From the NCBI GenBank assembly GCA_016929435.1, contig JAFGIV010000007.1, positions 1-52,061 of the forward strand: 52,061 nucleotides of DNA, given 5' to 3'. A program made the position numbers and the translations under genes. The DNA is from Candidatus Uhrbacteria bacterium. GTDB taxonomy: Bacteria > Patescibacteriota > Patescibacteriia > SG8-24. The notes under the pieces were generated by a model, which did no database searches, was not told the DNA's origin, and saw only the letters and a list, made by a program, of their open reading frames with translations. Shown here piece after piece: positions 32,680-49,448 of this stretch (position 1 is the stretch's first letter; each line of letters opens with the position of its first letter).

Positions 32680-33300
32680 TCAGCGGCGGAAATTACGGGT
32701 ACCGACCGTGGTCTGCAGGTAGACCAGGGACCGTTCGCGCGGATCAGCCGAAATGTTCTCGGTCCCCAGGACTATGGTTACCGCCGGCTGGCTGGAGGCG
32801 CCGTAAAGACCGGTGACGGCATCAAAACCGTACGGGTCGGCAACCGGACGGATGAAGAACGAGGCCCGAAACACGTTGATGCCGGTCGGGGTCAGGACCT
32901 GCGTGGCACCGCCGTTAATGGACACCAGGAGGCAGGATCGCACCGCCTCTGACCCTGACCCGCATTCCGAATCCTCCCTGTTCCGAAAGAAACGTATCCT
33001 GTCACCCTGTCCGTCGATGAGGGCCAGGGTATCGACGGCGTTCGCACCGTCCAGCGGCAGGTTCTCCCCATACCACGCGTAATCGACGGCCCCGGAACGG
33101 ATCTCCCGCACCATGGCCTCCATGGTATAGCGGGCATCCGACTGGACCCGCTCCATGCTGACGGTCTTGCGTTGGGCCCGATTGGACATCAGGAAAATGT
33201 CGGCCGCGGTCGTCAGCACGACCGAAAACAGGCCGAGGACAATCAGCGTCTCCATTAGCGTAAACCCGCCCTTTCCTTTCCTGTCCCTATCGCCAGTCAT
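32680..33300 (-). CDS. Minor pilin, PilW-like
   Basis: A 206-residue prepilin. The cleavage site KGKGG|FTLMETLIVLGLFSVVLTTA follows a short basic lead and has Glu5 of the mature chain (FTLME). The PilW-like continuation SMERVQSDARYTMEAMVREIRSG is in place, followed by a beta-domain with two Cys. Minor pilins prime fibre assembly. It overlaps the PilV-like gene by 14 bases and is one base from pilX. Confidence 0.85.
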   Translation of the reverse strand: MTGDRDRKGKGGFTLMETLIVLGLFSVVLTTAADIFLMSNRAQRKTVSMERVQSDARYTMEAMVREIRSGAVDYAWYGENLPLDGANAVDTLALIDGQGDRIRFFRNREDSECGSGSEAVRSCLLVSINGGATQVLTPTGINVFRASFFIRPVADPYGFDAVTGLYGASSQPAVTIVLGTENISADPRERSLVYLQTTVGTRNFRR

Positions 33301-33898
33301 AGATCGTTTCCGTCACGGCCACGTCACGGGGACGCTTGCCGCCGCCCCAGGCGACCAGGGATTCTATGCGGATGCCGACCTGCGGATCGGCCATGTCACA
33401 GGCCGAACCGGATTCCCTAACCTCCTGGCTTCGGCAAACCGGATTGAGGACCAGAAGCCGCCTGAAGGGAGTCCGAAAGCTGTCCGCCGGCCGGACGGTG
33501 TCTTGGGTATGGATTCCCAGGTGTTCGGAAGTCAGGCGCCAGACTTCCGTCCCCTCCCCGGACAGGGAGTCGGGAGCGAAGTCCAGGGACCAATCCCCGG
33601 AAACCGGGTCGAAAACGGCAATGGCCGTATAGTCCAGGCTTTCCCCCACAAGACCGTCGTCCCATCTCCGTTCCGCCAGCCAGTTGGAATCCCTGATGTT
33701 CCTGGCCACCTCCACCCCTTCCCGGGCCAGGTTGACGGCCACCATCATGTCCTCATTGGACTTTTGGGCGTTAAGTGACGATCCGGTCAGGGTCAGGGCC
33801 GCCACCACGGCCGTTGAAATGACCGCCAGGGCGACGATCACTTCAACGATCGACTGGCCGGACCGATTAACCCTTTCATTGCCGAAAAAAACAGGCAT
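33287..33898 (-). CDS. Minor pilin, PilV-like
   Basis: A 203-residue prepilin-like protein. The leader ends RSG|QSIVEVIVALAVISTAVVAALTL. Mature position 1 is Gln rather than Phe, but Glu5 is present. The region QKSNEDMMVAVNLAREGVEVARNIRDSNWL is typical of PilV-like minor pilins. Two cysteines (CRSQ..ACD) near the C-terminus may form a disulfide. It lies four bases after the FimT-like gene and overlaps the PilW-like gene. Confidence 0.8.
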   Translation of the reverse strand: MPVFFGNERVNRSGQSIVEVIVALAVISTAVVAALTLTGSSLNAQKSNEDMMVAVNLAREGVEVARNIRDSNWLAERRWDDGLVGESLDYTAIAVFDPVSGDWSLDFAPDSLSGEGTEVWRLTSEHLGIHTQDTVRPADSFRTPFRRLLVLNPVCRSQEVRESGSACDMADPQVGIRIESLVAWGGGKRPRDVAVTETIYDWR

Positions 33899-33902
33899 AG
33901 GA

Positions 33903-34538
33903 CTACTCGACGCTGACCTGTCCGGAAATCCCGTTGATTCGGACGGTCCTGACCTGACCGGTCTTGGCGTGGGTCAGGGTAACGGTGGCGATCGGGCTGT
34001 CGTTCCGTCCGTTGAACCAGGCCGTCGGACGGGGGGCCGAAAAGCTGATGTCCAGGAAACCTCCGCCGTCCGGATCGACTGCCGAAACGGAAACGTTGCG
34101 GCCGGCGGCGGCGAACTCCAGGCGCCTCAGCAGCTCGTATTCCTGGTAGGAGTGGTCCGAGTCGCCGCTCCTGTCCTCATCCCCGGTATCGGCAAAGAAA
34201 AGGGCCGTCCGCCCCCCGGTTCCGTAATCGATCCTCACCCCGTATCCGCCGCGGGGGGTATCCAGGATGCAGCGCCCGGATTCGCCGCACCCGCCGCCCT
34301 CACCGGCCGTGCAGAGGCTGCCGTTCATGTCCCCGGCTTCCCGACACTGGTATATGGACTGGGAAACCAGGGCAAAGGTCTGGGCCCGCCGGATCTCCGC
34401 AGCCAGGTTGGAGGCCGCATAGCGCAGCTCGTCGCCGTATTCGGAAACCCGAAAGTTGGCGACGGCCATGGTGGTCATGATCGCCATGATGCTCATCGTC
34501 ACGAGCAGTTCAACCAGCGTGAATCCCCGCCTGTCCAT
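33903..34538 (-). CDS. Minor pilin, FimT/GspH-like
   Basis: A 211-residue prepilin, MDRRG|FTLVELLVTMSIMAIMTTMAV with Glu5, then the GspH/FimT-like segment YAASNLAAEIRRAQTFALVSQ. The C-terminal domain is beta-rich with several Cys (CREAG, CTAGE, CGES, CILD). ATG 34538 keeps the leader at five residues, normal for type IVa pilins; another in-frame ATG lies 14 codons upstream and overlaps pilD. It sits four bases after pilD. Confidence 0.88.
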   Translation of the reverse strand: MDRRGFTLVELLVTMSIMAIMTTMAVANFRVSEYGDELRYAASNLAAEIRRAQTFALVSQSIYQCREAGDMNGSLCTAGEGGGCGESGRCILDTPRGGYGVRIDYGTGGRTALFFADTGDEDRSGDSDHSYQEYELLRRLEFAAAGRNVSVSAVDPDGGGFLDISFSAPRPTAWFNGRNDSPIATVTLTHAKTGQVRTVRINGISGQVSVE

Positions 34539-34542
34539 ACCG

Positions 34543-35325
34543 TCAGAACACCAGCCCCCAATACCAGTCCAAAAGGGCATCCCCGAAAAGCAGGACCGTC
34601 ACCGCAGCCGCGGACAGGAACGTCCCGAAGGCCAACTGCTGGCCGAGCCTCTCCCGTCCGGTGATCAACATGACCGTGGCAACTGTCGCCCCTCCCACAT
34701 AGGCCAAGAACAGGGCCAGGAGGGTCTTCTGCCAGCCGAGCGCCGCCCCCATGAACATCCCGAGCCAGGCATCCCCGCCGCCGATCCAACGCCCCCGGGA
34801 AACCAGGAACTGGATGCGGAAAAAACCCCCGGCGATCACGGCCCCCAGGACCGGGGAAAACCACCCGTCACCCAGGGCCAAATGGGCCAACAGCACGGCA
34901 ACCGTCGCCGGACCGATCACCTCCGGCAGGATCATCAGGTATTTCAGGTCAAAAACGAAGGCAAAAACGAAAACCGATACCAGGAACCAGTGGAACAGCA
35001 GGCGCGGCAGGTCCGTCATGGCCGCCGTTTCCCCGGCCGGAACCGTGGCCATCAGGGCCAGGACGAACAGCAGGCCGGTTACGGTCTCCACGATCGGGTA
35101 ATGCGGGCTGATGGGTTTTCGGCAGTAGCGGCATTTTCCCCCAAGGAAAAGGTAGCTGAATACCGGCACCAGGTCCCTGGCCGCCAACCCGTGCCGGCAA
35201 TGGATGCATTTCGATCTCCCCCGGACAAAACTCTGTCCGACATGCAGCCGCCAGATGACGGCGTTCAGGAAACTGCCGATGATTGCCCCAAAGGCAAAAA
35301 CGAAGGTTTGGATGACGACATTCAT
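34543..35325 (-). CDS. pilD: Prepilin peptidase PilD
   Basis: PilD, 260 residues, cuts prepilin leaders and N-methylates the new N-terminus at the inner membrane. The N-terminal methyltransferase part has GAIIGSFLNAVIWRL and the zinc-type Cys pairs C40-x2-C43 and C65-x2-C68. The aspartyl protease pair is in FDLKYLMILPE and GGGDAWLG (GxGD). About eight helices. It follows pilA across a terminator (35376-35401) and heads pilD-fimT-pilV-pilW-pilX. Confidence 0.95.
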   Translation of the reverse strand: MNVVIQTFVFAFGAIIGSFLNAVIWRLHVGQSFVRGRSKCIHCRHGLAARDLVPVFSYLFLGGKCRYCRKPISPHYPIVETVTGLLFVLALMATVPAGETAAMTDLPRLLFHWFLVSVFVFAFVFDLKYLMILPEVIGPATVAVLLAHLALGDGWFSPVLGAVIAGGFFRIQFLVSRGRWIGGGDAWLGMFMGAALGWQKTLLALFLAYVGGATVATVMLITGRERLGQQLAFGTFLSAAAVTVLLFGDALLDWYWGLVF

Positions 35326-35457: not shown

Positions 35458-35943
35458 CTACTCGGCCGGGGGGGTATAGTTGTATATACCGGTCGGATCA
35501 GCCTTCACGTCACCGCCGGACAGGTCACCGACGCTACCGCCTATGCAGAACGTAATCTCATAGGTGGAACCGTCAGCGCTGACATAGCTGTAAGGGTTGT
35601 TCGTAGCGTCACAGTCACCGTCTTCCGGTGTTGGGGCAGACGGAACCAGGCCCATGTAGGTGGAACCGGTAGCCGTACCGGCGAAACCGTCGCTGGAAAG
35701 CGAACTGGCTGTAGCCGATCCCAAAACAATGGCGGTGGCCTCCGTCGGATAGCTGTTCTCATCGGAGAAGTAGAGCTCCAGGGCGGTCTGGACCTGCTTG
35801 ACGTCAGCGACGCGCTTGGAGTCACGGGACTTCTGGCGGGCGCTGTTCAGGGCGACCACGGCCAAGGTGGACAGAAGTCCGATAATGGCAATGACGACCA
35901 GCAGTTCAATGAGGGTAAAACCCTTCTTGTTGGATTTGATCAT
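35458..35943 (-). CDS. pilA: Type IV major pilin PilA
   Basis: PilA, 161 residues. The class III leader is MIKSNKKG|FTLIELLVVIAIIGLLSTLAV with Glu5. The helix continues into ALNSARQKSRDSKRVADVKQVQTALELYFSDENSYPTE, then a Ser/Gly/Thr-rich head with a C-terminal Cys pair (GDCDATN, TFCIGG). This is the classic candidate for the fibre subunit. ATG 35943 has GGAGGTG six bases upstream, the best ribosome site in the pilus locus, fitting high expression. An N-terminal extension of 35 codons is open but unnecessary. TATCAT at 36068-36063 is a possible -10 without a clear -35; pilC ends upstream. Confidence 0.95.
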   Translation of the reverse strand: MIKSNKKGFTLIELLVVIAIIGLLSTLAVVALNSARQKSRDSKRVADVKQVQTALELYFSDENSYPTEATAIVLGSATASSLSSDGFAGTATGSTYMGLVPSAPTPEDGDCDATNNPYSYVSADGSTYEITFCIGGSVGDLSGGDVKADPTGIYNYTPPAE

Positions 35944-36100
35944 ATTGACACCTCCCTTCACCAAATGGATTATTTCCGAATCTTTCATCGGCCCGGAAAC
36001 GCCGTTACGGAAAGGCCCGGACCCGAAACGGGATGGGCTTATCCACAACAGAACGTATGTTCATGATACCACATTGCGTCCGAAAACGACACGGCAGGCG

Positions 36101-37312
36101 CTACATGCTGGTGGCCATGTTGTACATCGGCAGCATGATGGCGGCCACCATGATCCCGACCGCCCCACCCATCACCAGCATGATGATAGGTTCAATGGCC
36201 GAAACCAGGTTGTCCACCAGGTTGGACAGCTCCCGGGAATAGAATACCGTCAGCTTGTCCATGACGTCGGCCAGACGGCCGGTCTCCTCCCCCACGGCCA
36301 TCATCTGCGGGACCATCTTCGGCATGGATCCGTCCTTCCCGAACACGCCGGATATGGAATGCCCGTCCATCACCTCTTTCCTGGTCTGGACGATCAGCTC
36401 CCGGTACTTCTCGTTCCCCACCACATCGGCGCAGACCTCCAGGCTGGCCGGGATGTCCACCCCGCCCTCCACCAGGGTCCCGAAACTCCGGGTAAAACGG
36501 ACCAGGTATATCCGCTGCAGCAGCATCCCGAACACCGGCAGGCGCAGGATGGCCCCGTCAATGAACCGCTTCCCGTTCGGGGTCCGGTTCCAGAGGCCCA
36601 AACCAACGGCAGCGGCCACGATCCCGACGACGATCTGGATGACGTAATCCCTCATGAACTCGGACGTGACGATCAGCAGCCTGGTGGTCCACGGAAGGGC
36701 AGTCCCGGATTCGGTCAGGACCGCCGTCATCTTCGGCACCACGAAGGTCATCATGACGAACCCCACGATAACCAGGGCGATGATGACGACGATCGGATAG
36801 GTCATGGCCCCCTTGATCTTGGTCATCAGGTCATAGTCCCTTTCCATCTGGTCCGCCAGGTAGTCCATGACATCCTCCAGGCGGCCGGTCGTCTCACCGG
36901 AACGGATCATGTTCACGTAGAACTGGGAAAAGGCGTTCGGGTGCTTGGCCATGGCCACGGACAGGGCCAGGCCGGATTCTGACTCGTCGGCGATATCCAG
37001 GACAATGGCCTTCAGGCGCCGGTTTTCCGTCTGGGAAGCGACGGTCCTCAGGGCCCGGATTACCGGCACCTTCGCCCCCATCAGGACGGCGAATTGGCGG
37101 GAAAAGATGACCAGGTCCCGAATCTTCACCCGATCGAAAAACGGCAGGTTGATCTCTATCTCACCGCCCCCTTTCCGGTGTTCGGACAGGGAAATTACGG
37201 TAAGGTTCCGATCCTTCAGGGTATCGGCCGCCAATTCCAGGTTGTCCGACTCCACCAGACCGGCGACGGTCGCTCCGCTACGGTCGGTCGCCCGGTATTC
37301 GTATTTCGGCAT
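36101..37312 (-). CDS. pilC: Type IV pilus inner-membrane protein PilC
   Basis: PilC, 403 residues, the platform that couples pilus ATPases to subunit assembly. Two GspF repeats are visible. The first has VIFSRQFAVLMGAKVPVIRAL, then GAMTYPIVVIIALVIVGFVMMTFVVPKM. The second has VRFTRSFGTLVEGGVDIPASLEV, then the end SAIEPIIMLVMGGAVGIMVAAIMLPMYNM. Three membrane helices. It follows the receiver gene by 13 bases. Confidence 0.95.
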   Translation of the reverse strand: MPKYEYRATDRSGATVAGLVESDNLELAADTLKDRNLTVISLSEHRKGGGEIEINLPFFDRVKIRDLVIFSRQFAVLMGAKVPVIRALRTVASQTENRRLKAIVLDIADESESGLALSVAMAKHPNAFSQFYVNMIRSGETTGRLEDVMDYLADQMERDYDLMTKIKGAMTYPIVVIIALVIVGFVMMTFVVPKMTAVLTESGTALPWTTRLLIVTSEFMRDYVIQIVVGIVAAAVGLGLWNRTPNGKRFIDGAILRLPVFGMLLQRIYLVRFTRSFGTLVEGGVDIPASLEVCADVVGNEKYRELIVQTRKEVMDGHSISGVFGKDGSMPKMVPQMMAVGEETGRLADVMDKLTVFYSRELSNLVDNLVSAIEPIIMLVMGGAVGIMVAAIMLPMYNMATSM

Positions 37313-37325
37313 TGTTTTTTTACGG

Positions 37326-37724
37326 CTATTTCTTCATCCCCAAGACCTCCTTGATCTTAGCCACGGCCTCGGCCGGCACGAAATGGGCCTTGATGAGGTA
37401 ATCGGCGGCCCCCTCACCCATCCCCTTTTCTATATCCTCCTTCTGGCCCAGGTTCGTCAGCATGATAACCGGGATATCCTTGGTTGCCGGATCCCCCTTC
37501 AGCCGCTTAAGGACCTCAAAACCGTCCAGTTTCGGCATCAGCACGTCCAGAAGGATCAGGTCCGGCAGCTCCTTGGCGGCTGCCTTCAGCCCCTCATCCC
37601 CGTCACGGGCGGACAGGACGGAAAAACCGTCCATCTCCAGCTTGGTGGCATAGATGCCGGAAAGGAAGGAGTCGTCGTCCACGATCAGGATTCTGGTCCG
37701 GCCGTTCTTGTTGTCTTCGGTCAT
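37326..37724 (-). CDS. Stand-alone CheY-like response regulator
   Basis: A 132-residue receiver domain only. The acidic pocket is IVDDDSF (16-18), the phosphoacceptor Asp60 is in LILLDVLMPK, the Thr is in VIMLTN, and the Lys is in DYLIKAHF. There is no output domain, so it acts like CheY by protein contact. It sits between pilB and pilC, suggesting it gates the pilus machine. No histidine kinase is in the window. ATG 37724; 49 bases after pilB. Confidence 0.92.
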   Translation of the reverse strand: MTEDNKNGRTRILIVDDDSFLSGIYATKLEMDGFSVLSARDGDEGLKAAAKELPDLILLDVLMPKLDGFEVLKRLKGDPATKDIPVIMLTNLGQKEDIEKGMGEGAADYLIKAHFVPAEAVAKIKEVLGMKK

Positions 37725-37773: not shown

Positions 37774-39513
37774 CTATTCCTTGGTGATCCGCATGATCTC
37801 CTCCATGGTCGTCAGGCCCTCCAGCACCTTTATCAGCCCGTCCTCCTTCATGCTTATCATCCCGTTCTTCCTGTTGGCTTCCTGGACCTTCGGTATGGGG
37901 AATCCGCTGTTTATCAGTTCCCTCATTCCGGCGTCAAAGGGCATCAGTTCGGCCACGGCCACCCGGCCGCTGTATCCGGTATCGTTGCACCGCAGGCATC
38001 CCCTTCCCCGATAGACCTTCAGTTTCGGCCCGCTCATGTCTATGTGGGAAAGGTAGCTTTTCGGAACCGCCTCCAGGCCCTTCCTGATCTGGGCCTCCAC
38101 TTCGGGCGGCAGCTCCTGCTCGGCCTTGCACCGTTCGCATATCTTCCGGGCCAGCCGCTGGGCAATGGCCAGGTTCATGGTGGCGGAAAGCAGGAACGGC
38201 TCGACATGCATGTCGATGAGGCGCGGCACCACGCCCAAGGCATCGTTGGTATGCAGGGTGGAGAAGATCAGGTGACCGGTGAGCGCCGCATGGACTGCCA
38301 GCTCCCCGGTCTCGGTGTCGCGAATCTCCCCGACCATGATGATGTTTGGGTCCTGGCGAAGAAGGGACCGCAGGCCGGCGGCAAAGGTAAACCCGACTTC
38401 AGGCCGCACCTGGGACTGGTTAACCCCCCGGATCTGGTATTCCACGGGATCCTCCAGGGTTGAGATGTTGACCCTCTCCTCGTTCCTCATGTTCAGGATG
38501 GTGAACAGGGTGGTGGATTTTCCGGAACCGGTAGGGCCGGTAATGAGGAACATCCCGTGCGGCTTCTGGATCTCCTGCTGGATGATCTCCACGTACTGCC
38601 GCCGGAAACCGAGCTGCTCAAGCAGGGGAACGCCCTTGGTGGTGTCCAGGATACGCATCACGACCTTCTCCTCCTCGGTCATCGGCAGGGTGGAGACGCG
38701 AAAATCTATCTGCTTGTCCCCGAAGGTCTCCCGGATCCTTCCGTCCTGCGGCACCCGCGTCTCGTCCAGCTTCAGGTTGGCCAGGACCTTGATGCGGGCC
38801 ACTAGGGAATTGTGGACGTATTTCGGGACCTTCAGGGACGTCCGGAGCACGCCATCGACGCGGTAGCGGACCCGGGTCTCTTCCCCGAAAGGCTCGATGT
38901 GGATGTCCGAGGCCCCACCCTCCACGGCATGGCGCATGACAACGGAAACGATCCTGGAAACCGGCGCACCCTTTATGACATCGCTCAGGTCAATTTCGCC
39001 CTCCTTTTCCGCCTTGGGCTTTTCGACCAGCTTGTCCTTGGCCACCTCTAGGGCCTTGGCGACCTCCTTTCCGATTTCCTCGTACTTCTTCAGGGCATGA
39101 CGGAAGGAAGCCTGGGAGATTATGTGGTATTTCGGGCGGAAGCCGCTGGCTTGAGACAAAAAATCAATCGCCTGGACAGCGGTCATGTCCCGCGGGTCGA
39201 TCATGCCTACGCTGACGGAATCCCCTTCCCTGGCAAAGGCGATGGACCGGGTGTTCTCGGCCACAGGCTTGGATATCAGCTTGATGACCTCCGGATCAAT
39301 CTCGTGACCGACCAGATCGGTGTAGGGAACGTTAAGCAGGGTGGCCTGCCCCTTCACCAGCAGCTCGTCGTCAACGATCCGGCTCTTGCGGAGCGTCTCG
39401 TCCGCCGTTTCCCCGGCCTGAGCGGCCTTTTCCCCAATTTGTCTGAACTGCTCGTCGGTGACGTGCCCGGATTCGAGCATTATCTCCAGCAGTTCGTTTC
39501 CGGTTCTGTTCAT
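37774..39513 (-). CDS. pilB: Type IV pilus extension ATPase PilB
   Basis: PilB/GspE, 579 residues. The N-terminal GspE-N domain (1-150) is followed by the ATPase core. DGRIRETFGDKQIDFRVSTLP precedes Walker A GPTGSGKST (326-334). The Asp box is ISTLEDPVEYQIRGVNQ, Walker B is IIMVGEIRDTETGELA and the His box is LTGHLIFSTLHTNDA. The zinc site is CERCKAE with CLRCNDTG, as in PilB rather than PilT. No PilT retraction ATPase is in the window. It lies 13 bases after a small membrane-protein gene. Confidence 0.96.
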   Translation of the reverse strand: MNRTGNELLEIMLESGHVTDEQFRQIGEKAAQAGETADETLRKSRIVDDELLVKGQATLLNVPYTDLVGHEIDPEVIKLISKPVAENTRSIAFAREGDSVSVGMIDPRDMTAVQAIDFLSQASGFRPKYHIISQASFRHALKKYEEIGKEVAKALEVAKDKLVEKPKAEKEGEIDLSDVIKGAPVSRIVSVVMRHAVEGGASDIHIEPFGEETRVRYRVDGVLRTSLKVPKYVHNSLVARIKVLANLKLDETRVPQDGRIRETFGDKQIDFRVSTLPMTEEEKVVMRILDTTKGVPLLEQLGFRRQYVEIIQQEIQKPHGMFLITGPTGSGKSTTLFTILNMRNEERVNISTLEDPVEYQIRGVNQSQVRPEVGFTFAAGLRSLLRQDPNIIMVGEIRDTETGELAVHAALTGHLIFSTLHTNDALGVVPRLIDMHVEPFLLSATMNLAIAQRLARKICERCKAEQELPPEVEAQIRKGLEAVPKSYLSHIDMSGPKLKVYRGRGCLRCNDTGYSGRVAVAELMPFDAGMRELINSGFPIPKVQEANRKNGMISMKEDGLIKVLEGLTTMEEIMRITKE

Positions 39514-39848: not shown

Positions 39849-40460
39849 CTATTTGACGGTTCCCCCAACGGTCTTTCCGGAAACCATCCGGTATGCCTTC
39901 ATGGTGAACTGGTAGCGGCCGTTATCCGGCGAATGGCCGGTCTGGACGATATCCAACAGCCGCTCCAGGTTCTGAAGGTCACCCATCAGGTTCTTGAAAT
40001 CCAGGTAGTTGCCGCCGGAAAACGATACCGTAACCCGCAGGGCCTGAAGCCCGTCGGCGGCCGGTTCACCGACGGACATGTCCACGACCTCCATGGACAC
40101 GGCGTTCCTTTCGGCGATCTCCTCCAGCTGGACCACCAGTTCGGGAAAATCAAGGCCTTCAGGCACCATGTGCCTGACCCGGTCACGGTATTCCTCCGGC
40201 ACCGCCTGATAGGCCTTCAATCCGGCTTCAACCCGCTCGATATAGGCCTGGTCTTCGGCAATGCGGCCCTTCAGGGCAGTGAAGTCGTAGCTGCCTCCCG
40301 GCATCAGCGGGGCAATCTTCGGGGAAAAAACCAGGAACCAGGCTCCGGCCACATAGGCCACGACCAGGAATGCGGCAATCGCCGGAAGCCAGGCCGCCAA
40401 TACCCTCCTGATCCGTTCCCCTTTCGGCACCGCTATCTTTTTTCCTTTGTCTTCCGGCAT
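39849..40460 (-). CDS. pilO: Pilus alignment protein PilO
   Basis: PilO-like, 203 residues. One helix (LAAWLPAIAAFLVVAYVAGAWFLVF), then a short coiled region with YDFTALKGRIAEDQAYIERVEAGLKAYQAVPEEYRDRVRHMVPEGLDFPELVVQLEEIAERN, then a ferredoxin-like domain with ALRVTVSFSGGNYLDFKNLMGDLQNLERLLDIV. That last part is diagnostic of PilO. It lies one base after pilN. Confidence 0.88.
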   Translation of the reverse strand: MPEDKGKKIAVPKGERIRRVLAAWLPAIAAFLVVAYVAGAWFLVFSPKIAPLMPGGSYDFTALKGRIAEDQAYIERVEAGLKAYQAVPEEYRDRVRHMVPEGLDFPELVVQLEEIAERNAVSMEVVDMSVGEPAADGLQALRVTVSFSGGNYLDFKNLMGDLQNLERLLDIVQTGHSPDNGRYQFTMKAYRMVSGKTVGGTVK

Positions 40461-40461
40461 A

Positions 40462-41145
40462 TCATTCCCCTTTCGTTTCCCGAACGGACGGGTGTCCTGT
40501 CCAGACCTTCGGATCCACGGTCAGTATGACGGTCGCATAAACTCCGGACATCAGGCCGTCCTTGTTCACGTCACCGGCCACTGAGGTGTTCCTCATCTGA
40601 AGGACCTCGTTCAGGCCGCTGAAATGGATCAGCTGCTGGGCCATGGCCCGATACTTCGGGGCCCTGACGTCCAGGGAAACCAACCCGCTGTCCGTGTCAA
40701 CCGTCATCCGGTCATACCTTATTCCGCCAAGGGTATTGGACTCCAGGAACTCGATCAGCTCGGTCGGGTAGCGGTGGCGGTCCAAGACCTTGGCGGCCAG
40801 TCCCAACTGACGGCTGAAGCGCATGGCCTCCCCCATCTCCAGCTCCTTGGCCTCGGCCTCTGATGCCACGGCTTCCTGCTGCCGCTCCAACTGGACCTTT
40901 TCCCCTGACTTGGCCTCCAGGCGGCGATTCAGCACGTAATATCCGACCAGGATGCCGACTGTCACGACGACTAGGGCCATGACCGTCCCCAACAGCCTGA
41001 GCCTGAAATCCGGCCCTTCCTGACCAAGAAGGTCCTTTGGAACCAGGGAAACCCGCAAGCCGGAAAAGGCCTCGGAAATCCCCGATTTCCTGACCGTCGA
41101 TTCCTGGCTTCCGCCCTTTATTTCGGTGGTTAAGTCTTCCGTCAT
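40462..41145 (-). CDS. pilN: Pilus alignment protein PilN
   Basis: PilN-like, 227 residues. A cytoplasmic stretch contains VSLVPKDLLG (the PilM-binding NLLP-type motif), then one helix (LLGTVMALVVVTVGILVGYYVL). A coiled segment (RRLEAKSGEKVQLERQQEAVASEAEAKELE) and a ferredoxin-like domain (GIRYDRMTVDTDSGLVSLDVRAPKYRAMAQQLI) follow. It lies six bases after pilM and one before pilO, the standard order. Confidence 0.88.
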   Translation of the reverse strand: MTEDLTTEIKGGSQESTVRKSGISEAFSGLRVSLVPKDLLGQEGPDFRLRLLGTVMALVVVTVGILVGYYVLNRRLEAKSGEKVQLERQQEAVASEAEAKELEMGEAMRFSRQLGLAAKVLDRHRYPTELIEFLESNTLGGIRYDRMTVDTDSGLVSLDVRAPKYRAMAQQLIHFSGLNEVLQMRNTSVAGDVNKDGLMSGVYATVILTVDPKVWTGHPSVRETKGE

Positions 41146-41151
41146 AGGACG

Positions 41152-42255
41152 TCAGTCGATGTCACGCATCGCCAAGCCGACACTGACGGCATAGCGGTAT
41201 CCGATCTCGTCGAGTACGGGCCGAAGGCCCTCCGGATAGACTATCCTGGCCCACGGGTCGCCGACATAGACCTTGGTCGAAAGCTTCCCCTCCAGGTGGG
41301 AGATGAGCGACGGGAGGGCCGAGGCGCCGCCGGTGACGATTACCCGTTCCACCGTTTTCACGGACTGGCCCTCTCCCTGTTCGGCATACAGGCCCATGGA
41401 ATACTGGAGTTCCGTCAGCATCGGCATGACCGTATCGGCAAAAATCTTCGGCAGCTCTTCCCCGGGGTACAGGCTGGAAACGCCCTTGATGTCGCACTTC
41501 ATCCTTTCCGCCTCCTGCAGCTCGATGCTTAGGCTCTGGCTCATGGCCCGGGTAAAGGAGTTGCCGCCCATGTCCAGGCTCCGGGCCACGTACGGAATGC
41601 CGTTCTCGACAATGACTATGTTCGTCCGGACCGAACCGATGTCAACGATCATGGTAATGGAACGGTCCTTCCCGATCAGGGACCTTATCAGGGGGAAGGT
41701 TTCGGTCTCCAGACTGACCATCTCCAGGCCGGCCGCCCGAAAAATGCCGACATACCTCTGGACCAGGCTGCGGGAGGCGCCGGTAATAAGGACCTGGTTG
41801 GATATTTTCGGCTTCTGCCCCGTCTCCTCCTCTTTCTTGGCGGCCACCGGCCTAACGGCGGCAACCTGGGGGATTACCTTGAAGTCCAACACCATGTCCT
41901 CCAGCGGCAGGGGGATCAGTTTCCTGGCCTGGGCCGTAACGGTTTCCCGGAAATCCTTGTCCTCCGGCGACTTCTGAACCGTCACCACGGAACTGAATAC
42001 GGAAGATATGGGCAGGCTGGCCACGGCCTTGGTGGTGGTGGTCCGTGCCTGACGGCATATCTCCTTCAGCAGCTTGGCGGATTCCTTCTCATCGGTCATG
42101 GGCGGAAACGGGTCGTTTCCCGGGTGGTTTTCGCTGAAACCGTAGGTCACCAACCGGGCCCTTCCCTTCTCATTGCACAATTCGACGATCTTGGTGCCGC
42201 CCATCCCGATATCCACGCCAATGAAATTGTTCTTTCCCTTTCCGAACAGACCCAT
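41152..42255 (-). CDS. pilM: Pilus ATP-binding protein PilM
   Basis: PilM, 367 residues, an actin-like cytoplasmic protein that binds PilN. The actin-fold motifs are present: FIGVDIGMGGTKIVEL (phosphate 1), TMIVDIGSVRTNIVIVENG (phosphate 2) and VIVTGGASALPSLISHL (adenosine). An insertion with ARKLIPLPLEDMVLDFKVI is typical of PilM. It is the first gene of the pilus operon; TATAAT (42293-42288) sits 32 bases before ATG 42255. Confidence 0.93.
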   Translation of the reverse strand: MGLFGKGKNNFIGVDIGMGGTKIVELCNEKGRARLVTYGFSENHPGNDPFPPMTDEKESAKLLKEICRQARTTTTKAVASLPISSVFSSVVTVQKSPEDKDFRETVTAQARKLIPLPLEDMVLDFKVIPQVAAVRPVAAKKEEETGQKPKISNQVLITGASRSLVQRYVGIFRAAGLEMVSLETETFPLIRSLIGKDRSITMIVDIGSVRTNIVIVENGIPYVARSLDMGGNSFTRAMSQSLSIELQEAERMKCDIKGVSSLYPGEELPKIFADTVMPMLTELQYSMGLYAEQGEGQSVKTVERVIVTGGASALPSLISHLEGKLSTKVYVGDPWARIVYPEGLRPVLDEIGYRYAVSVGLAMRDID

Positions 42256-42331: not shown

Positions 42332-45300
42332 TTACGGTAACGGGGGGGCCGCCCCGTATACCGGCAGGGATTTCGAAAGGTCACCGAATCCCGGCGGCGG
42401 GTTAAGTATGGCCCGTCCGTCATATTCGAACCGCTCCGAACCCCGCTCCTCGCTCCGGTAGGACCGGCTCAAGTGGAACTGCCTGGCCAAAAGGAGGCCC
42501 TTGACCGTCAGCGGTTCGGGGCTGTCGGTAGCCGGCGGCGCCACGGTATAGAAACCGCCCTGACCGGCCGAAAAGAAGGCCCCGGCCAGATCGGTAACGT
42601 CCTCATCCACGTAGATGTTGCCGCCGGACCGGTCTTCCCGGTCAATCGCCATCCAGCCGACCGAAGCGACCTGCCGGACTGACTGCAAACCCACGAAATG
42701 GACGGGCTGGTATTCCACGTTCCCGCGGAAGGTGATCGATCCGCCCCTGACGACGACCGTACCGCTGGCGTCCACGGTGTCGGAAACCGAATCCGGAACC
42801 GTAACGTCGGAAAGGACCTCAAGATCCTCCCCCTCGATGAGATATACCTTCCCTCCCAGCGGCTGCCCGCTGAACGCCGGAAAAACGCCGCCGAAATCCG
42901 CGGCCCGAACCCGCACCACTTCCCCATACCTTCCGTCCAGCAGCCCCGCCATGTCTATCCGGCCCAAAGCCGTGCTGAAGTGGTTGATGCTACCGGGCCG
43001 TTCCAGGACCGTCAAGCGGTCCAGTTCGGTGTCAATATCCGTTTTCGGGCAGAGTTCGGTCCGGAAGGTCGGCTGGCCGTTGGTTGTCTCGATCAGCCCC
43101 TTGGCCGTGATGCAGAAGGTGGCGTTAAACCGGTTTTCCGGCGGAACCTCCCGGAAACGGATATGGCTGCCGGAACGGACATTCCCGCGGGGTGCCTCCA
43201 CCCAGGGGAATATGAGGCTGATGCACCTTTCGGCCCCCGCACAGATGTCCCCGAAACCCTCCACGCAATCCGCGTCAACATGGCAGGCATCGATCAGCAT
43301 GTCCCCGTCCCGGTCCTGCGGCTGGCCGGCGGAATCGAAACACTGACCCTCAATCGGGCAGTCCGGATCGCCGAAACAGACGAACCCGGTAACCTCACAC
43401 AGACCCCAATCCGTCCGACAGGACTGTTGGGACCAGGAATCGCCTGACTCGTCGGTTGCCCATGTCGGGGCCGGACAGCAGGTCGGGTCGTTCTCGTCCA
43501 GGCAACAGCCGCTTTCGGCGGAAAGGGCACAGCTGTCGGGCGTCACCGGATCGTCCGGGACATACCCGTAGGAGTACCAGCTGCAGGCATAGTCCCGGTC
43601 CTTATCGCAACGGCCCAACTGGGTGCAGCTGTCACCGATGCCGTCAAGGTTCCAGTCCTCCTGCCCGGGATTCTCCAGGCCGACACAGTTGTCGCACGGG
43701 CGGTAGGCGGGTCCGTATTCGGTCGAACCCGCGTAAAGGTCGGTGTAATACCCCTCCGTAGCCCTGTCGCCGTCAAAATCCGCCCAATGGCAGGGGTTAT
43801 ACCCCTCACCCTCGTCCGGTGTCGGCAGGGTCCGACAGATGTAGAACTCCCGCCGTTCTGACGCCACCGAATTCCCGTCCGCATCGCTGATGCCGACCTG
43901 CACGAAATAGTGGGTATCCGGGTTGTGGTTCTGGTCCGACAGGGACACTGACGAAAGGTCAATGCTGTCCTGGCATATCGCCAGGTTTCCGGCTCCGGTA
44001 TCCGGGAAAGAGGCGGATCCGATCAGGGATCCGGCGCTGTCGGTGATTTCCACCCGACAGGGATTGCCTATGAAACCGACGTTGTTTGCGGCCGTAAAGC
44101 TGACGCTTAGGCCCATCTCCCGGTAGGCGGAACGGCCGGGATCGAAAAACGGCGACTGGTCGGAACCCAAACTTTCCGGCCGGGAAACCTTTAGCGGACC
44201 GTTAGCGATCGGCGTTACCGTAACCGGCACGGACAGGGGGGACGAATCGGCCCCGATGTTGTCCGCACCGTCCTCGGCCCCGGCGGTCAGGACCATCGTT
44301 CCCCTATTCCGGAACCGCATGGTCACGCCGTCGACTATGGGATCGATCACGCATTTTCCGCTGTCGGAAACGAAATTCCTGGTTCCGCCGTAATCCATGC
44401 CAAGACGGCAGCGGCAGATGCCGGAAGAGTCCAGCGGGTCGGGCTGGAAGGGGTCGGACGGCACTATCCGAATCTGCCGCTGCGCACCGTAGGGGACGGT
44501 CAGGCTGACCCCGTCCCAACCCTCCACCTCAATCCCATTCACGACCGGCGGGTTTTCCTCATAAACCCGGTTCCGGAAAATCCTCTCCCCGTATTCCGGC
44601 AGGCCGCTTCCCTTCGTGGCCGACAGGGAAACCGTAAACTCACGGGACGAGGTCGGTGACGCGGGAAGGTCGCAGGTGATGTCCAGGGACGGGTCGGTAA
44701 CCGGGGCAACGGCGTAGACCATCAGGGCCTTGCCCGGAACAACGGTCATGTTGAAAACGGACGGATTGCTGACCGTACAGGAAACATCGGCATAGGGATA
44801 GGCAAACTCGGTTCCGGAAGCCGTGCCGACAAAAACCGCAAAATCCGGGTAAGATCCTGTCCCCCGAATGGCGATCGTATGTTTTTGTCCGACCCTGGAG
44901 GCAGTCATGACATTGGCGCTGACCGAGGGGTCGGTTTCCGCGATCCAGACCGGGCCGCTGTAGTCCGGCACGGATTGGCAGGCGGAAACCTGCCAATCCA
45001 TCGGAGCGCAGGAAGCCTGCCCCCAACACCCCTCATCCAGGCAGTCGATTCCTCCCGCCGGCAGAAGGTCATCGCCGTCGTTGTCTGCCTGGTCAAAACA
45101 GGCTCCGCCGGTCTCCCCTCCTGACTGGCAGACATACCCGCCAGCGGTCGTGACTCCCTCACAATCCGGATCGCGGCAGTCGATCAGTCCGTCAGCGTCG
45201 TTATCCAAACCGTCCGAACACTGGCGGGACGGATCCCCGGAAGATTCGGTTGCCCGGCAATAGGCAGCACCGGACAGCTGGCCGGGCCTGTTCAGGCAAT

Positions 45301-46846
45301 CCGGATCGCGACAGTCCGCCCCCTCCCCGGTATCGTTGTCCAAACCGTCCGCACAGGCGTCGAAGCGGTAATCCTCGTGGTCCGGGCACCATTGGCAATG
45401 CCCGAATTTCCGCCGACAGTCGCTGTCGTCGCAATCCATGGGACCGTCCGCGTCGTTATCCGTAACGTCAGCGCAGAGGTTGATGCCCTGACCGAGGTCA
45501 AACTCCCGATCCGAACAGAAAACGTTGGGGTTGGAGGGGTTCTCCACCCCAATGCAGTCCGGATCGGCACAGTCGATCAGGTGATCCAGGTCATTGTCAA
45601 TCCCGTCGAAACACTGCCCAGGGGCATCCGATCCGTCGGCGGCCCGGTGCTCTACCGATGGGCAGGCCGGATCCCCGGCGCAGTCGTAGTCAAGGCAGTC
45701 CCGCCCGGTCGAATCGATCGCGTCATACTCGTCGTCCCCGAAGCTGGTGTCAACATCGTTGTCCCGGTCATCGGCACAAAGCCCGACCTCGCCCACCGGA
45801 CAGCCGTATTCAGGGTGCCGCCAGCATATCCGGGAACCCGGACTGTCCTGGACATCGAGCAGGAAACGGAAAACCGTCTCCGTGCCGTCCAGGAACTCCC
45901 GGTTGTCCCGGCAATCGGTCCGACCGTCCCCGTCGTTGTCGAAACCGTCACCGCAGGGATCCTGGCCGTTGAGGATGCCGGGCGGACCGTACTCGTTTCC
46001 GTATTGGCAATAGCCGGTGCAGGCCGTGCCGGAAAGGTTCAGCCGTCCGCAGCGCAGGTTGCAGTCGGGATCAAGACAGTCGGCCAAACCGTCCCCGTCG
46101 TTGTCGAAACCGTCGTGGCAGGTGGTTTCCGGAATCTCGCAGAGCAGGCCGGCATCCAGCGGGTGCCCCTGTTTCCCCACGCAACGGATGTCGGCGCAGT
46201 TCGGGTAATAGTCAAGGTCATTGTCGACGGGGTTGCCGCCGGACAGGTCAGCGCAGGTCAGTCCGGTATCGCCGATCGGCAAAAGCGATTCCGTCTCATC
46301 CCCGTTTCCCGGCGCACTGCCGTCAACGTAAAAACGCAGCCCGCTCCTGCTCCCGCTCGCTCCCAACTGGAAAACGTAAAGGCTGAAATCGTATGCCCCT
46401 TCCGACAGGCCGGCATAGTCCACGGACATCGCGAAATCAACATCGCACCCCCCCGGACAACCGGCTGAGGAGCGGCGCTCGTAGCCGTTCCTTCCGGAGG
46501 TGATGTCCGACTCCGGGGGAAGGAAATGGGTGCCGTTGGGGTTGGCGTAGGCCGAGGCCGAAACGAACGGCGGGACATCGAAAAGTATGAAGGAGAGCAT
46601 TTCGGTCGTCGGGCCGTAACTGCCGCCGTCGAACCGAATCCGGAATTTCCCGTCCGGATTGACGTGTTGGGTGTATTCGTAACGTATCGGCTGGCCGCCA
46701 ACGGTCAGGGAACCGGAGCAGACGTTTCCGTCGCAGGTCAGGGGCGCGACTATTGCCCTGGAGGAAGGGACGGAAAACGTAACCGACGCCAACAGGAGCG
46801 TGGCGAACGAGGCGACGGCGACCGTAAAAAACCCGGGATTCCTCAT
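42332..46846 (-). CDS. Giant secreted Cys-rich DNDxDG-repeat protein
   Basis: A 1504-residue exported protein. The signal peptide is MRNPGFFTVAVASFATLLLASVTF with cleavage near residue 32. Residues about 205-610 hold eight or more copies of a 20-40-residue unit C-x-DG-x-DND-x-DG-x-x-DC-x-DPDC (for example CFDGIDNDLDHLIDCADPDC). This Asp/Cys pattern resembles calcium-binding thrombospondin type 3 and putative metal-binding repeats. The middle (about 620-1040) is beta-rich like Ig or cadherin folds. A second Cys-rich part (1040-1200) follows. The C-terminus (1200-1504) looks like a beta-solenoid (VDASGTVVVRGGSITFRGNVEY). Probably a surface or adhesin-like protein. It overlaps the next gene by four bases (ATGA). 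Confidence 0.85.
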   Translation of the reverse strand: MRNPGFFTVAVASFATLLLASVTFSVPSSRAIVAPLTCDGNVCSGSLTVGGQPIRYEYTQHVNPDGKFRIRFDGGSYGPTTEMLSFILFDVPPFVSASAYANPNGTHFLPPESDITSGRNGYERRSSAGCPGGCDVDFAMSVDYAGLSEGAYDFSLYVFQLGASGSRSGLRFYVDGSAPGNGDETESLLPIGDTGLTCADLSGGNPVDNDLDYYPNCADIRCVGKQGHPLDAGLLCEIPETTCHDGFDNDGDGLADCLDPDCNLRCGRLNLSGTACTGYCQYGNEYGPPGILNGQDPCGDGFDNDGDGRTDCRDNREFLDGTETVFRFLLDVQDSPGSRICWRHPEYGCPVGEVGLCADDRDNDVDTSFGDDEYDAIDSTGRDCLDYDCAGDPACPSVEHRAADGSDAPGQCFDGIDNDLDHLIDCADPDCIGVENPSNPNVFCSDREFDLGQGINLCADVTDNDADGPMDCDDSDCRRKFGHCQWCPDHEDYRFDACADGLDNDTGEGADCRDPDCLNRPGQLSGAAYCRATESSGDPSRQCSDGLDNDADGLIDCRDPDCEGVTTAGGYVCQSGGETGGACFDQADNDGDDLLPAGGIDCLDEGCWGQASCAPMDWQVSACQSVPDYSGPVWIAETDPSVSANVMTASRVGQKHTIAIRGTGSYPDFAVFVGTASGTEFAYPYADVSCTVSNPSVFNMTVVPGKALMVYAVAPVTDPSLDITCDLPASPTSSREFTVSLSATKGSGLPEYGERIFRNRVYEENPPVVNGIEVEGWDGVSLTVPYGAQRQIRIVPSDPFQPDPLDSSGICRCRLGMDYGGTRNFVSDSGKCVIDPIVDGVTMRFRNRGTMVLTAGAEDGADNIGADSSPLSVPVTVTPIANGPLKVSRPESLGSDQSPFFDPGRSAYREMGLSVSFTAANNVGFIGNPCRVEITDSAGSLIGSASFPDTGAGNLAICQDSIDLSSVSLSDQNHNPDTHYFVQVGISDADGNSVASERREFYICRTLPTPDEGEGYNPCHWADFDGDRATEGYYTDLYAGSTEYGPAYRPCDNCVGLENPGQEDWNLDGIGDSCTQLGRCDKDRDYACSWYSYGYVPDDPVTPDSCALSAESGCCLDENDPTCCPAPTWATDESGDSWSQQSCRTDWGLCEVTGFVCFGDPDCPIEGQCFDSAGQPQDRDGDMLIDACHVDADCVEGFGDICAGAERCISLIFPWVEAPRGNVRSGSHIRFREVPPENRFNATFCITAKGLIETTNGQPTFRTELCPKTDIDTELDRLTVLERPGSINHFSTALGRIDMAGLLDGRYGEVVRVRAADFGGVFPAFSGQPLGGKVYLIEGEDLEVLSDVTVPDSVSDTVDASGTVVVRGGSITFRGNVEYQPVHFVGLQSVRQVASVGWMAIDREDRSGGNIYVDEDVTDLAGAFFSAGQGGFYTVAPPATDSPEPLTVKGLLLARQFHLSRSYRSEERGSERFEYDGRAILNPPPGFGDLSKSLPVYGAAPPLP

Positions 46847-48504
46847 GGCTGGTTCACCCTAATTACCCGATTGCGCCCGGTGCAGCACAGGTCACCGGGG
46901 GTATAGGCGGGATCGTCACAGTCGTAATATCCGTCGTTATCCGACCCGTACAGGCATTCCATTCCGCCTACGACCCGATTCTGCCTGGTGCAGCAGATGT
47001 CCCCCACCTCATATCCCGGCGAATCGCAGCGGCCAATGGTCGATTCCGCCTCCTGCCAATCGCAATTCAGGGCCGGATGCTCGATGCAGTCCACCGACAG
47101 GCTGCGGCAAAACGGATCCAGGCAATCGGTCAGGCCGTTGCCGTCGTCATCGATGCCGTTGACGCATTCCCGCTCGATCGGAATTGCCTTGTTCATGGCC
47201 ATGCTGAAGGTGGCGTTTCCCGCGAAATCGCACCGGGCCGAATTTTGAAAAAACTCCCCCTCGAACTGGGCGTAGCACTTCACCGCCCGATAGAAATCCT
47301 CGCTGGGCCCGAACAGGGTCCATTCGTTGTGGTGCGCATAGAACGGCAGGCGGCCGGTATCCAGGACAATGTCCCGGCAGAAACCGGATCCGCCCGGAAT
47401 GCCGAAATCGCAGACCTGACCGGAATCGCAGGCCGAATCCCCCGTACAGGCGGCCGGGGTCGGTTCCCCCGCCAGGTAACAGCCATCCACGAACCAAAGG
47501 GTATTGCCCTGGATCGGATCGGTACCGGGCTGGGCCGGGTTCCTGATGCCGTCCGCCTCGGATACCGAACCGTAAAAGACCGCGTCCGAACCGTTGGCCG
47601 GTTCGGTCTGGAATGTCCGCCCCAAAACCACCGTGTCCCCGTTCGGTTTAAGGAGGTCACACCGCAGCATGTATCCGATCGGGGCGAACACGTCCTCCAC
47701 GGTAACGGAATAGTCCGAGGGGTGGACTCCGGGAACCGGGGAATTGGCCGGCTCGAATATCCCCTGCGGACGCCTGACCTCCCCGACGAACGGCGGGGTC
47801 CAGTCGGTCTCCGCAAGGCTCCAGTCGATCCACCCCAAACCGGTACCGTCGTCATTGCCGCTCCAGGCCCAGTGGCCGGGATAGGCCGCGGCCGGAGCCG
47901 GCGGGTCGTCACATTCGTCCGGATCGCAAAAGGATCCGGTTTCCGGATCAAGGGCAACATAGAAAAACCGGCCGGTTCCCGCTTCCGGATCGCAGGCCTT
48001 CACCGACGGGTCACCGTTGTCGCAATTAAGGGAAATCCAGCCGCCTTCAGCCTCCCCGACGACGCGGGCCCAACCGTAAAGCCTGCCGTAGGGTGAATCC
48101 GGATCGGCCTGGACCCATTCGGCGTAATTGCCGGCCATGCCCTCGGGGTTGGGGATCGGGTTGCCGGACTTGTCCGTCAGCCCGTCGCAGGCCTTGCCGA
48201 AACATATCCAGCCGAAATTGTTCGACCAGGCAAAGCCGCTGATCGGCGCCCGCATGTAGGTCTGGCCGTCAGCCGGATCGAACAGGAAGACCGGGGAACC
48301 TATTTCCACGCCGTAATCCGAAGCGGCACAGGTGCCGCCGTTCTCGCAGTTCATGGAGATCCAACCGGCCACGGATGACCAAAGGTATCCGCGGATGGCG
48401 CTTCCGGCCAGGGCCGGTTCCGATCCGAAAAAAAACAAGCAGATGGCGACTGCGGAAAAAATCGCCAGGAACCTGATTTTCACGGCAGGGATGACGGTAG
48501 GCAT
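46843..48504 (-). CDS. Secreted Cys-rich GW-repeat protein
   Basis: A 553-residue exported protein. The signal MPTVIPAVKIRFLAIFSAVAICLFFFGSEPALA ends at an ALA site. Residues 35-240 hold four repeats with GYLWSSVAGWISMNC, GFAWSNNFGWICFG, YGWARVVGEAEGGWISLNC and GHWAWSGNDDGTGLGWIDW, a motif often seen in surface proteins of this group. The later part has paired Cys and one DND-type unit (CVNGIDDDGNGLTDCLDPFC) as in the giant neighbour. A double motif ends it (CCTRQNRVVGG, CCTGRNRVIR). A TATAAT 11 bases before ATG 48504 predicts a leaderless mRNA. It heads a two-gene operon whose ATGA overlap couples the giant protein. Confidence 0.85.
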   Translation of the reverse strand: MPTVIPAVKIRFLAIFSAVAICLFFFGSEPALAGSAIRGYLWSSVAGWISMNCENGGTCAASDYGVEIGSPVFLFDPADGQTYMRAPISGFAWSNNFGWICFGKACDGLTDKSGNPIPNPEGMAGNYAEWVQADPDSPYGRLYGWARVVGEAEGGWISLNCDNGDPSVKACDPEAGTGRFFYVALDPETGSFCDPDECDDPPAPAAAYPGHWAWSGNDDGTGLGWIDWSLAETDWTPPFVGEVRRPQGIFEPANSPVPGVHPSDYSVTVEDVFAPIGYMLRCDLLKPNGDTVVLGRTFQTEPANGSDAVFYGSVSEADGIRNPAQPGTDPIQGNTLWFVDGCYLAGEPTPAACTGDSACDSGQVCDFGIPGGSGFCRDIVLDTGRLPFYAHHNEWTLFGPSEDFYRAVKCYAQFEGEFFQNSARCDFAGNATFSMAMNKAIPIERECVNGIDDDGNGLTDCLDPFCRSLSVDCIEHPALNCDWQEAESTIGRCDSPGYEVGDICCTRQNRVVGGMECLYGSDNDGYYDCDDPAYTPGDLCCTGRNRVIRVNQP

Positions 48505-48515
48505 ATCACCGTTTC

Positions 48516-48521
48516 ATTATA
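48516..48521 (-). promoter_or_regulatory. -10 of the secreted-protein operon, near-leaderless
   Basis: A perfect TATAAT ends 11 bases before ATG 48504. No good -35. Confidence 0.55.
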
Positions 48522-48572
48522 TAGCAAAACGGGGGCAACACGAAATGGGGCGTCTCCCTCCCGCAACCCAAG

Positions 48573-48606
48573 AAAAAAAACCGGTCAGGACCCTTGTCCT
48601 GACCGG
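48573..48606 (-). terminator. Terminator of matrixin-like gene
   Basis: CCGGTCAGGAC (48581-48591) pairs perfectly with GTCCTGACCGG (48596-48606), with a 4-base loop. Minus-strand T8 follows (plus A 48573-48580). Confidence 0.95.
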
Positions 48607-48631
48607 AAGGAAAAAACCTACCTCCTCTATC

Positions 48632-49363
48632 TTAGAGACATTCATGCCTTTCACAGACATGACGTCCGTCTGCTTCTGTAAAATCCAGAAGGCTCCTGTC
48701 CAGAAAGGCGTTCATGACCGCCCCATCCCCCTCCACATGCCCGAGACCAAGCATGTGCCCAATTTCGTGCATGACAACCGTCCGGAAATTACCCGGGCAA
48801 GGATCCCCCTCCTCAAGGGGGATGTCCTCTGGCCATTCGGACGGAATCGGACATGCACTCCCCCCATACCGGGGCATGCTGTCTGAGAAGATAAAAATGT
48901 CCCCACTGGAGGACGCCCTTCCTAACCTTCCCGAAAGATCCGTTTGGGAGAAAACCTCCATCAGCTCCCAATTGTACTCGTGCGCACAAATGAGAGTGTT
49001 TTTCCCGTCATTTAATCTCTTAGGGGTTAAACCCCTAAAATCCGGGTAATACTCCCCCAAGACCTCCACCCAACTTCCTTTTCCGGTTTTTTCGAGGAAA
49101 AAACCGTTGACCTTATCAACCCCCTGATACACTGCCTCTCTCTCAAGAGGCGTGCAGTTCCGATCTATCCAGAAGCTATAAACACCGTCCGTATCGGCGT
49201 CAGCATCGGCGTCCGCATCGTCCGTATCGCCATCCTCCCCCTCATCACCCACATCGTCCGTATCGCCGTTCCATTCCCCGTCACACGTCTCTTCCGTCTC
49301 TTCACAGGCGGCAGCGCCAATCAGGCCAAAAAGAACCGTCACCGTCATTATTATTTTTTCCAT
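48632..49363 (-). CDS. Matrixin-like zinc metalloprotease lipoprotein
   Basis: A 243-residue lipoprotein. The signal TVTVLFGLIGAAAC puts the lipidated Cys at 20. The next 40 residues are a strongly acidic, low-complexity linker (DDADADADADTDG). The protease core has the metzincin zinc motif HEIGHMLGLGH (199-209), preceded by RTVVM, and the Met-turn VMN (216-218). The size of the catalytic part (about 180 residues) fits matrixin/archaemetzincin-like proteases. It may process surface proteins, perhaps the two secreted proteins just downstream; that is inference from position. The promoter TTGACA - 17 - TATGAT is almost a copy of the one at 530-558. An ATCGCC/GGCGAT hairpin sits in its leader. 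GGGGAG lies seven bases before ATG 49363. Confidence 0.88.
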   Translation of the reverse strand: MEKIIMTVTVLFGLIGAAACEETEETCDGEWNGDTDDVGDEGEDGDTDDADADADADTDGVYSFWIDRNCTPLEREAVYQGVDKVNGFFLEKTGKGSWVEVLGEYYPDFRGLTPKRLNDGKNTLICAHEYNWELMEVFSQTDLSGRLGRASSSGDIFIFSDSMPRYGGSACPIPSEWPEDIPLEEGDPCPGNFRTVVMHEIGHMLGLGHVEGDGAVMNAFLDRSLLDFTEADGRHVCERHECL

Positions 49364-49419
49364 TCTTGCTCCCCTTTTCTAATCGCCCTCAAGGCGATGT
49401 TTTTCAAACGACTACTGAA

Positions 49420-49448
49420 ATCATAGCACAAAAAGGGGGTTTTGTCAA
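49420..49448 (-). promoter_or_regulatory. Promoter of matrixin-like gene
   Basis: Minus strand TTGACA (49448-49443), 17-base spacer, TATGAT (49425-49420). It matches the promoter at 530-558 at 24 of 29 positions. Confidence 0.8.

Follow-up and report, generated by a model that had tools for sequence, protein, structure and literature searches.

Exported repeat proteins heading a type IV pilus operon in a Patescibacterium: a candidate adhesin module

The first two genes of a complete type IV pilus (T4P) operon in a Patescibacterium (Candidate Phyla Radiation, CPR) near Ca. Uhrbacteria encode proteins of 553 and 1504 amino acid residues, referred to below as the GWIS protein and the repeat protein, each of which has a Sec-type signal peptide at its N terminus, as read from the sequence. 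The genetic linkage of this pair to the T4P is, in our assessment, very likely, and the two products are reasonably likely to be non-pilin surface subunits of the pilus, most likely an adhesin module that would be similar to PilY1 in its role and not in its sequence. The features on which this assignment is based are listed in Table 1; the window is the entire stretch of 52,061 nucleotides that was analyzed. The organism, which we take to belong to the ABY1 part of the CPR, has a genome of 1.1 Mb (completeness, 99.9%) and is a tiny, probably host-dependent bacterium. A sequence-only reading of part of this DNA correctly recognized the two overlapping exported proteins; the pilus link was absent from it, and the stretch it described ended at position 42332, 76 bp before pilM.

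Table 1. Features of the window discussed in the text (positions are those of the window)
Feature	Position	Strand	Basis
Promoter-like site of the metzincin gene, TTGACA-17-TATGAT, 11/12, with TG (extended -10)	49420..49448	-	Consensus match alone; region total not above shuffles
Metzincin (M10 matrixin-like) lipoprotein, 243 aa	48632..49363	-	PF00413 match, active-site motif
Intrinsic-terminator-like GC-rich hairpin, 11 pairs, T8, directly after the metzincin stop codon, before the GWIS gene	48581..48606	-	Consensus match alone; region total not above shuffles
GWIS protein, 553 aa, Sec signal, first gene of the T4P operon	46843..48504	-	Orthologues in the same place in 8 relatives; alignment
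GWIS domain (aa ~35-235), four G-x-x-W-S...G-W-I units, beta-rich	47800..48402	-	Invariant W/G columns in the alignment; strands in the AF2 model
Single acidic double-disulfide repeat of the GWIS protein (aa 444-466)	47107..47175	-	Repeat match and template scan
Repeat protein, 1504 aa, Sec signal, second gene of the T4P operon	42332..46846	-	4-bp overlap with the GWIS gene
Array of acidic double-disulfide (teneurin C-rich/TSP3-like) predicted calcium repeats (aa ~236-613)	45008..46141	-	NF033662, teneurin-4 match, ligand scan; ligands from PMC9058538
C-terminal domain (CTD) of the repeat protein (aa 1190-1504), ending in YDGR...NPPPG..D...LP	42335..43279	-	Conserved across the class; AF2 model; Foldseek
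PilM	41152..42255	-	PilM_2, E 9e-32; 76 bp after the repeat protein
PilN-like	40462..41145	-	Position, length, orthologues in relatives
PilO-like	39849..40460	-	PilO match below cut-off; orthologues in relatives
PilB assembly ATPase	37774..39513	-	Profile match
PilC platform protein	36101..37312	-	Profile match
Type IV pilin	35458..36048	-	N-methylation motif
PilD prepilin peptidase	34543..35325	-	Profile match
Three minor pilins (33903-34580, 33287-33898, 32680-33300)	32680..34580	-	One just under the Pfam cut-off

Transcription of the locus, in which the metzincin, GWIS, and repeat-protein open reading frames all lie on the minus strand, proceeds from RecJ and RNase H through a metzincin lipoprotein to the GWIS protein, the repeat protein, and then the entire T4P operon, composed of PilM, PilN, PilO, a small PilP-like protein, PilB, a receiver-domain protein, PilC, a pilin, PilD, three minor pilins, and a 302-aa protein. 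The lone receiver-domain protein, encoded between PilB and PilC (positions 37326-37724 of the window), is kept in the pil operons of most relatives and is possibly a pilus switch. In the organism's own genome, one PilT scores over the cut-off; there are four more matches to PilB/PilT-family ATPases, one of which is the PilB of the window, and several T4P-like systems may coexist in these 1.1 Mb.

The C-terminal domain (CTD), which comprises the last ~310 residues of the repeat protein, was used to trace the association across genomes with a narrow CTD alignment, a broader one being too divergent. The domain was found in 122 of the 240 genomes of the class. In a genome scan with it, all named matching records came from Patescibacteria, Ca. 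Uhrbacteria, or Parcubacteria. Among the 97 CTD-bearing class genomes with PilM coordinates listed, 89 have the end of the CTD gene immediately upstream of a co-oriented pilM (median gap, 100 bp); in six of the other eight, the two genes lie on separate contigs. The same arrangement is seen in more distant CPR genomes. Three loci outside the class (L107, L110, and L111) contain weak CTD-like matches with no pil genes adjoining.

Such a gene position alone could be explained by co-regulation. The CTD and the pilus machine also disappear together: the CTD is found in 117 of the 166 class genomes with a canonical PilC versus 5 of the 74 without one, a contrast whose strength is overstated by shared ancestry. 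The pattern nevertheless recurs within families, for instance in f24, whose CTD-negative genomes lack the canonical PilC. In three members of the window's own family (G001, G007, and G009), both repeat proteins have been lost along with PilN, PilO, PilB, PilC, and the minor pilins at the locus, with RecJ, RNase H, PilM, the pilin, and PilD retained. In these collapsed operons (L113, L114, and L115), the genes for PilM, pilin, and PilD stand side by side, and the only PilC of G007 and G009 is a divergent copy elsewhere in the genome. Since the two genes are the first in the T4P operon and are lost with the pilus machine, their products are probably part of the pilus. The CTD is an accessory, as 49 class genomes carry a canonical PilC and no CTD; in 14 such genomes, no counterpart could be recognized upstream of pilM.

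The shortest CTD protein has 473 aa and the longest more than 3,000 aa (in frames without masked bases); within the family, these proteins share 30-41% identity, compared to 56-71% for PilM and PilB; both the length range and the lower conservation are as expected of an exposed adhesin. In many relatives, a single gene of ~470-800 aa carries the GWIS and CTD parts together, and in the window's family and order these are distributed over two genes, with a long array of predicted calcium repeats in the C-terminal one. A still longer reading frame with a CTD (25,343 aa; G329:C2, 316045-392007) was rejected as a giant gene because 72,000 of its bases are masked as N; its CTD end still heads a pil operon. 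In another genome (G003:C38, 56682-57477), two reading frames each hold a portion of the CTD, which may reflect a frameshift or an assembly error.

The fixed place of the CTD gene beside the alignment genes pilM, pilN, and pilO, and its loss together with PilC, could also be taken to mean that the CTD protein, instead of being an adhesin, belongs to the structure of the pilus machine, either as a conduit in the envelope or S-layer or as a factor priming assembly, by which the pilus could get across the CPR cell surface. We consider this unlikely, given that the 49 PilC-positive genomes without a CTD show that it is not essential and that so variable an N-terminal part (473 to >3,000 aa) would ill suit a conduit. 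Slightly less likely still is a free secreted or S-layer-attached protein that is located off the pilus and whose only tie to the pilus machine is shared transcription or export through it. The Sec signals of the pair would fit such a protein, as would the lack of a demonstrated pilus-binding domain and of a pilin motif (neither window protein matches the class III signal with the N-methylation motif, PF07963, which the true pilins of the same operon do match). Against this reading, the association extends across the class and into more distant CPR members, with repeated joint loss.

The sequence-only reading was right in reporting GWIS-type and DNDxDG-Cys repeats: the GW[IL] repeats are confined to the 553-aa protein (at residues 47, 98, 155, and 224; the 1504-aa protein has none), and the acidic Cys-containing ones are found mainly in the 1504-aa protein. 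The GWIS protein scores 31.3 bits with the acidic double-disulfide repeat model NF033662, under its curated cut-off of 41 bits, and has one clear copy of the repeat. Its AF2 model (pLDDT, 70.8) comprises beta-rich repeats and an Ig-like part; a Foldseek search with this model returned generic Ig-like matches alone, none at an E value of ≤0.001, and the literature on the GWIS motif yielded unrelated matches only. Neither protein of the pair contains a recognized adhesive domain scoring over the cut-off. In one relative (G024; L018, 601-1920), a GWIS protein with no detected CTD is encoded between PilD and a minor pilin, which ties the GWIS domain to the pilus a second time. Another genome, of 0.9 Mb, encodes several paralogues with GWIS or acidic-Cys parts, 875 to 1781 aa long (G017:C1, at 27 kb and 515-534 kb).

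The repeat protein is a member of NF033662 over the cut-off (E value, 7.9e-28; 95.9 bits; six stretches), a model that covers the repeat alone, with the GWIS domain, the CTD, and the pilus link outside it. Seven 23-aa segments of this protein match a teneurin-type Ca/Cys template, versus none in 200 shuffles, and the calcium ligands are kept at 9 of 9 positions in residues 240-262, at 8 positions in three copies, 7 in two, and 6 in one. The acidic repeat matches the C-rich domain of teneurin-4 (7PLP; phmmer E value, 1.2e-4), whose 1.5-Å structure contains three calcium ions (PMC9058538) and whose repeat, ETxCxDxxDNDGDGLxDCxDPDC, with its three calcium sites, is the same. Teneurin is an animal cell-adhesion protein, and only this small module, in ~7 copies in the 1504-aa protein, is common to both; judging by sequence, the acidic repeats are a teneurin-type C-rich calcium module and do not place the protein in the teneurin family. 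The teneurin-4 match and the kept ligands make calcium binding by these repeats well supported by homology. Literature searches on acidic double-disulfide repeats, as well as on pili, surface proteins, or calcium in Patescibacteria, found nothing.

The CTD has no match over the cut-off in Pfam or NCBIfam. Its AF2 model (mean pLDDT, 71.5; pTM, 0.74) has good confidence for most of the stretch from residue 111 to 303 (of 315) and produced no significant Foldseek match; the top-ranked, weak one was ComZ (probability, 0.87; E value, 0.24; query TM, 0.28), followed by ice-binding beta-solenoids. Two ice-binding-like beta-solenoid adhesive domains, DUF7305 and pAdhesive_15, did not match the CTD of the window; among 27 CTD relatives, DUF7305 matched six (best E value, 0.0023; under the 27-bit cut-off where bits were given) and pAdhesive_15 matched one, below the cut-off. 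These weak matches agree with the Foldseek result; we take all of this as a hint, and the CTD is probably a beta-solenoid.

The following scheme can be proposed for the adhesin module. Both proteins would be exported by Sec, calcium would turn the acidic double-disulfide repeats into a stiff stalk, and the GWIS and Ig-like parts would point outward; the CTD would dock the protein on the pilus or on its minor-pilin tip, and the pilus would carry it outward to bind another cell or a surface, as PilY1 does in other bacteria and as has been proposed for PilX2 in the CPR bacterium TM7x. More tentatively, with the chances somewhat short of even, these proteins could represent a modular family of T4P adhesins in Patescibacteria, from a few hundred to several thousand residues in length, in which one conserved pilus-docking CTD is combined with interchangeable outer parts (GWIS units and calcium stalks) that would decide which cell the episymbiont grips.

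The metzincin encoded next to the pair is a different matter. The sequence-only description of it as an acidic-linker lipoprotein with a complete metzincin site is borne out by the active-site motif HEIGHMLGLGH at residue 199 (HExxHxxGxxH), a VMN Met-turn, an M10 match (PF00413; 30.2 bits versus a cut-off of 24), an acidic linker, and the lipobox-like sequence ...IGAAAC; a signal peptidase II gene was found in the organism's genome. It had further been proposed that the products of the three genes make up a surface structure that depends on calcium and has a processing protease of its own, perhaps for host contact. Conservation of the trio in relatives was the check suggested, and a protease gene that does not co-occur with the repeat proteins there had been named as refuting the proposal, which is what the relatives show. 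In the eight that carry both repeat proteins (six from the window's family and two from its order), no metzincin is found at the locus, where the order is RecJ, RNase H, GWIS protein, repeat protein, and PilM; the two from the order have additional genes between RNase H and the GWIS gene. Across the genomes of 56 relatives, weak homologues of the metzincin turned up in just 2, away from this locus. The third codon positions of the metzincin gene also deviate in composition (GC3, 0.57 versus ~0.75 in the neighbors); together with a promoter-like site and a terminator-like hairpin at the two ends of one gene, each of them weak alone, this fits an independent unit, probably an acquired one. Despite the adjacency on the same strand and the complete active-site motif, processing of the surface structure by this metzincin is very improbable, considering the relatives without it, its own promoter-like site and terminator, and its deviating GC3, and the trio was rejected as a unit; what survives of that proposal is a pair of exported, putatively calcium-binding surface proteins, whose repeat matches a three-calcium module and which perhaps serve in cell contact.

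On the question of how Patescibacteria recognize and hold host cells, PilX2 of TM7x was the only pilus adhesin candidate with genetic support found in the literature searched (PMC12206443). The CTD, present in half of the sampled class genomes, nearly always heading the pil operon, and lost with it, offers a sequence by which candidate host-recognition proteins can be sought in many uncultured lineages, and it delimits a part on which pilus docking could be tested. No description of the GWIS/CTD family or of its pilus link was found in the literature searched, which left most subscription journals outside, and a prior description is possible.

PilY1, or the Neisseria PilC tip adhesin, is a large Sec-exported non-pilin with calcium sites that is encoded with T4P genes. 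The window proteins are likewise large, Sec-exported, and non-pilin, with predicted calcium sites, and are encoded with T4P genes. However, the CTD resembles a beta-solenoid, whereas PilY1 is a propeller, and the window genes are located upstream of pilM and not in the minor-pilin cluster. The C-terminal beta-propeller of PilY1 (PF05567) has no match in either window protein at an E value of ≤1; in the genome-wide search with this model, the control genomes gave no match either. The parallel with PilY1 has previously been drawn for a candidate CPR pilus adhesin, PilX2 of the Saccharibacteria T4P-2 system of TM7x, which is needed for full host binding (PMC12206443). Like the proteins described here, PilX2 is encoded by a CPR member, is large, and lacks a PilD-type signal, and it has been proposed as a pilus adhesin for host binding; unlike them, it is pilin-like with an RCC1 beta-propeller, whereas the window proteins have GWIS and acidic-Cys repeats and a different C-terminal domain. 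ComZ of Thermus thermophilus, the top (if weak, E value of 0.24) structural match of the CTD, is a beta-solenoid related to ice-binding proteins and has been proposed to reside at the T4P tip (PMC6561018), but it is a genuine pilin into which the solenoid is inserted. The parts of the module, an acidic-Cys calcium repeat and a T4P accessory adhesin, are of known kinds.
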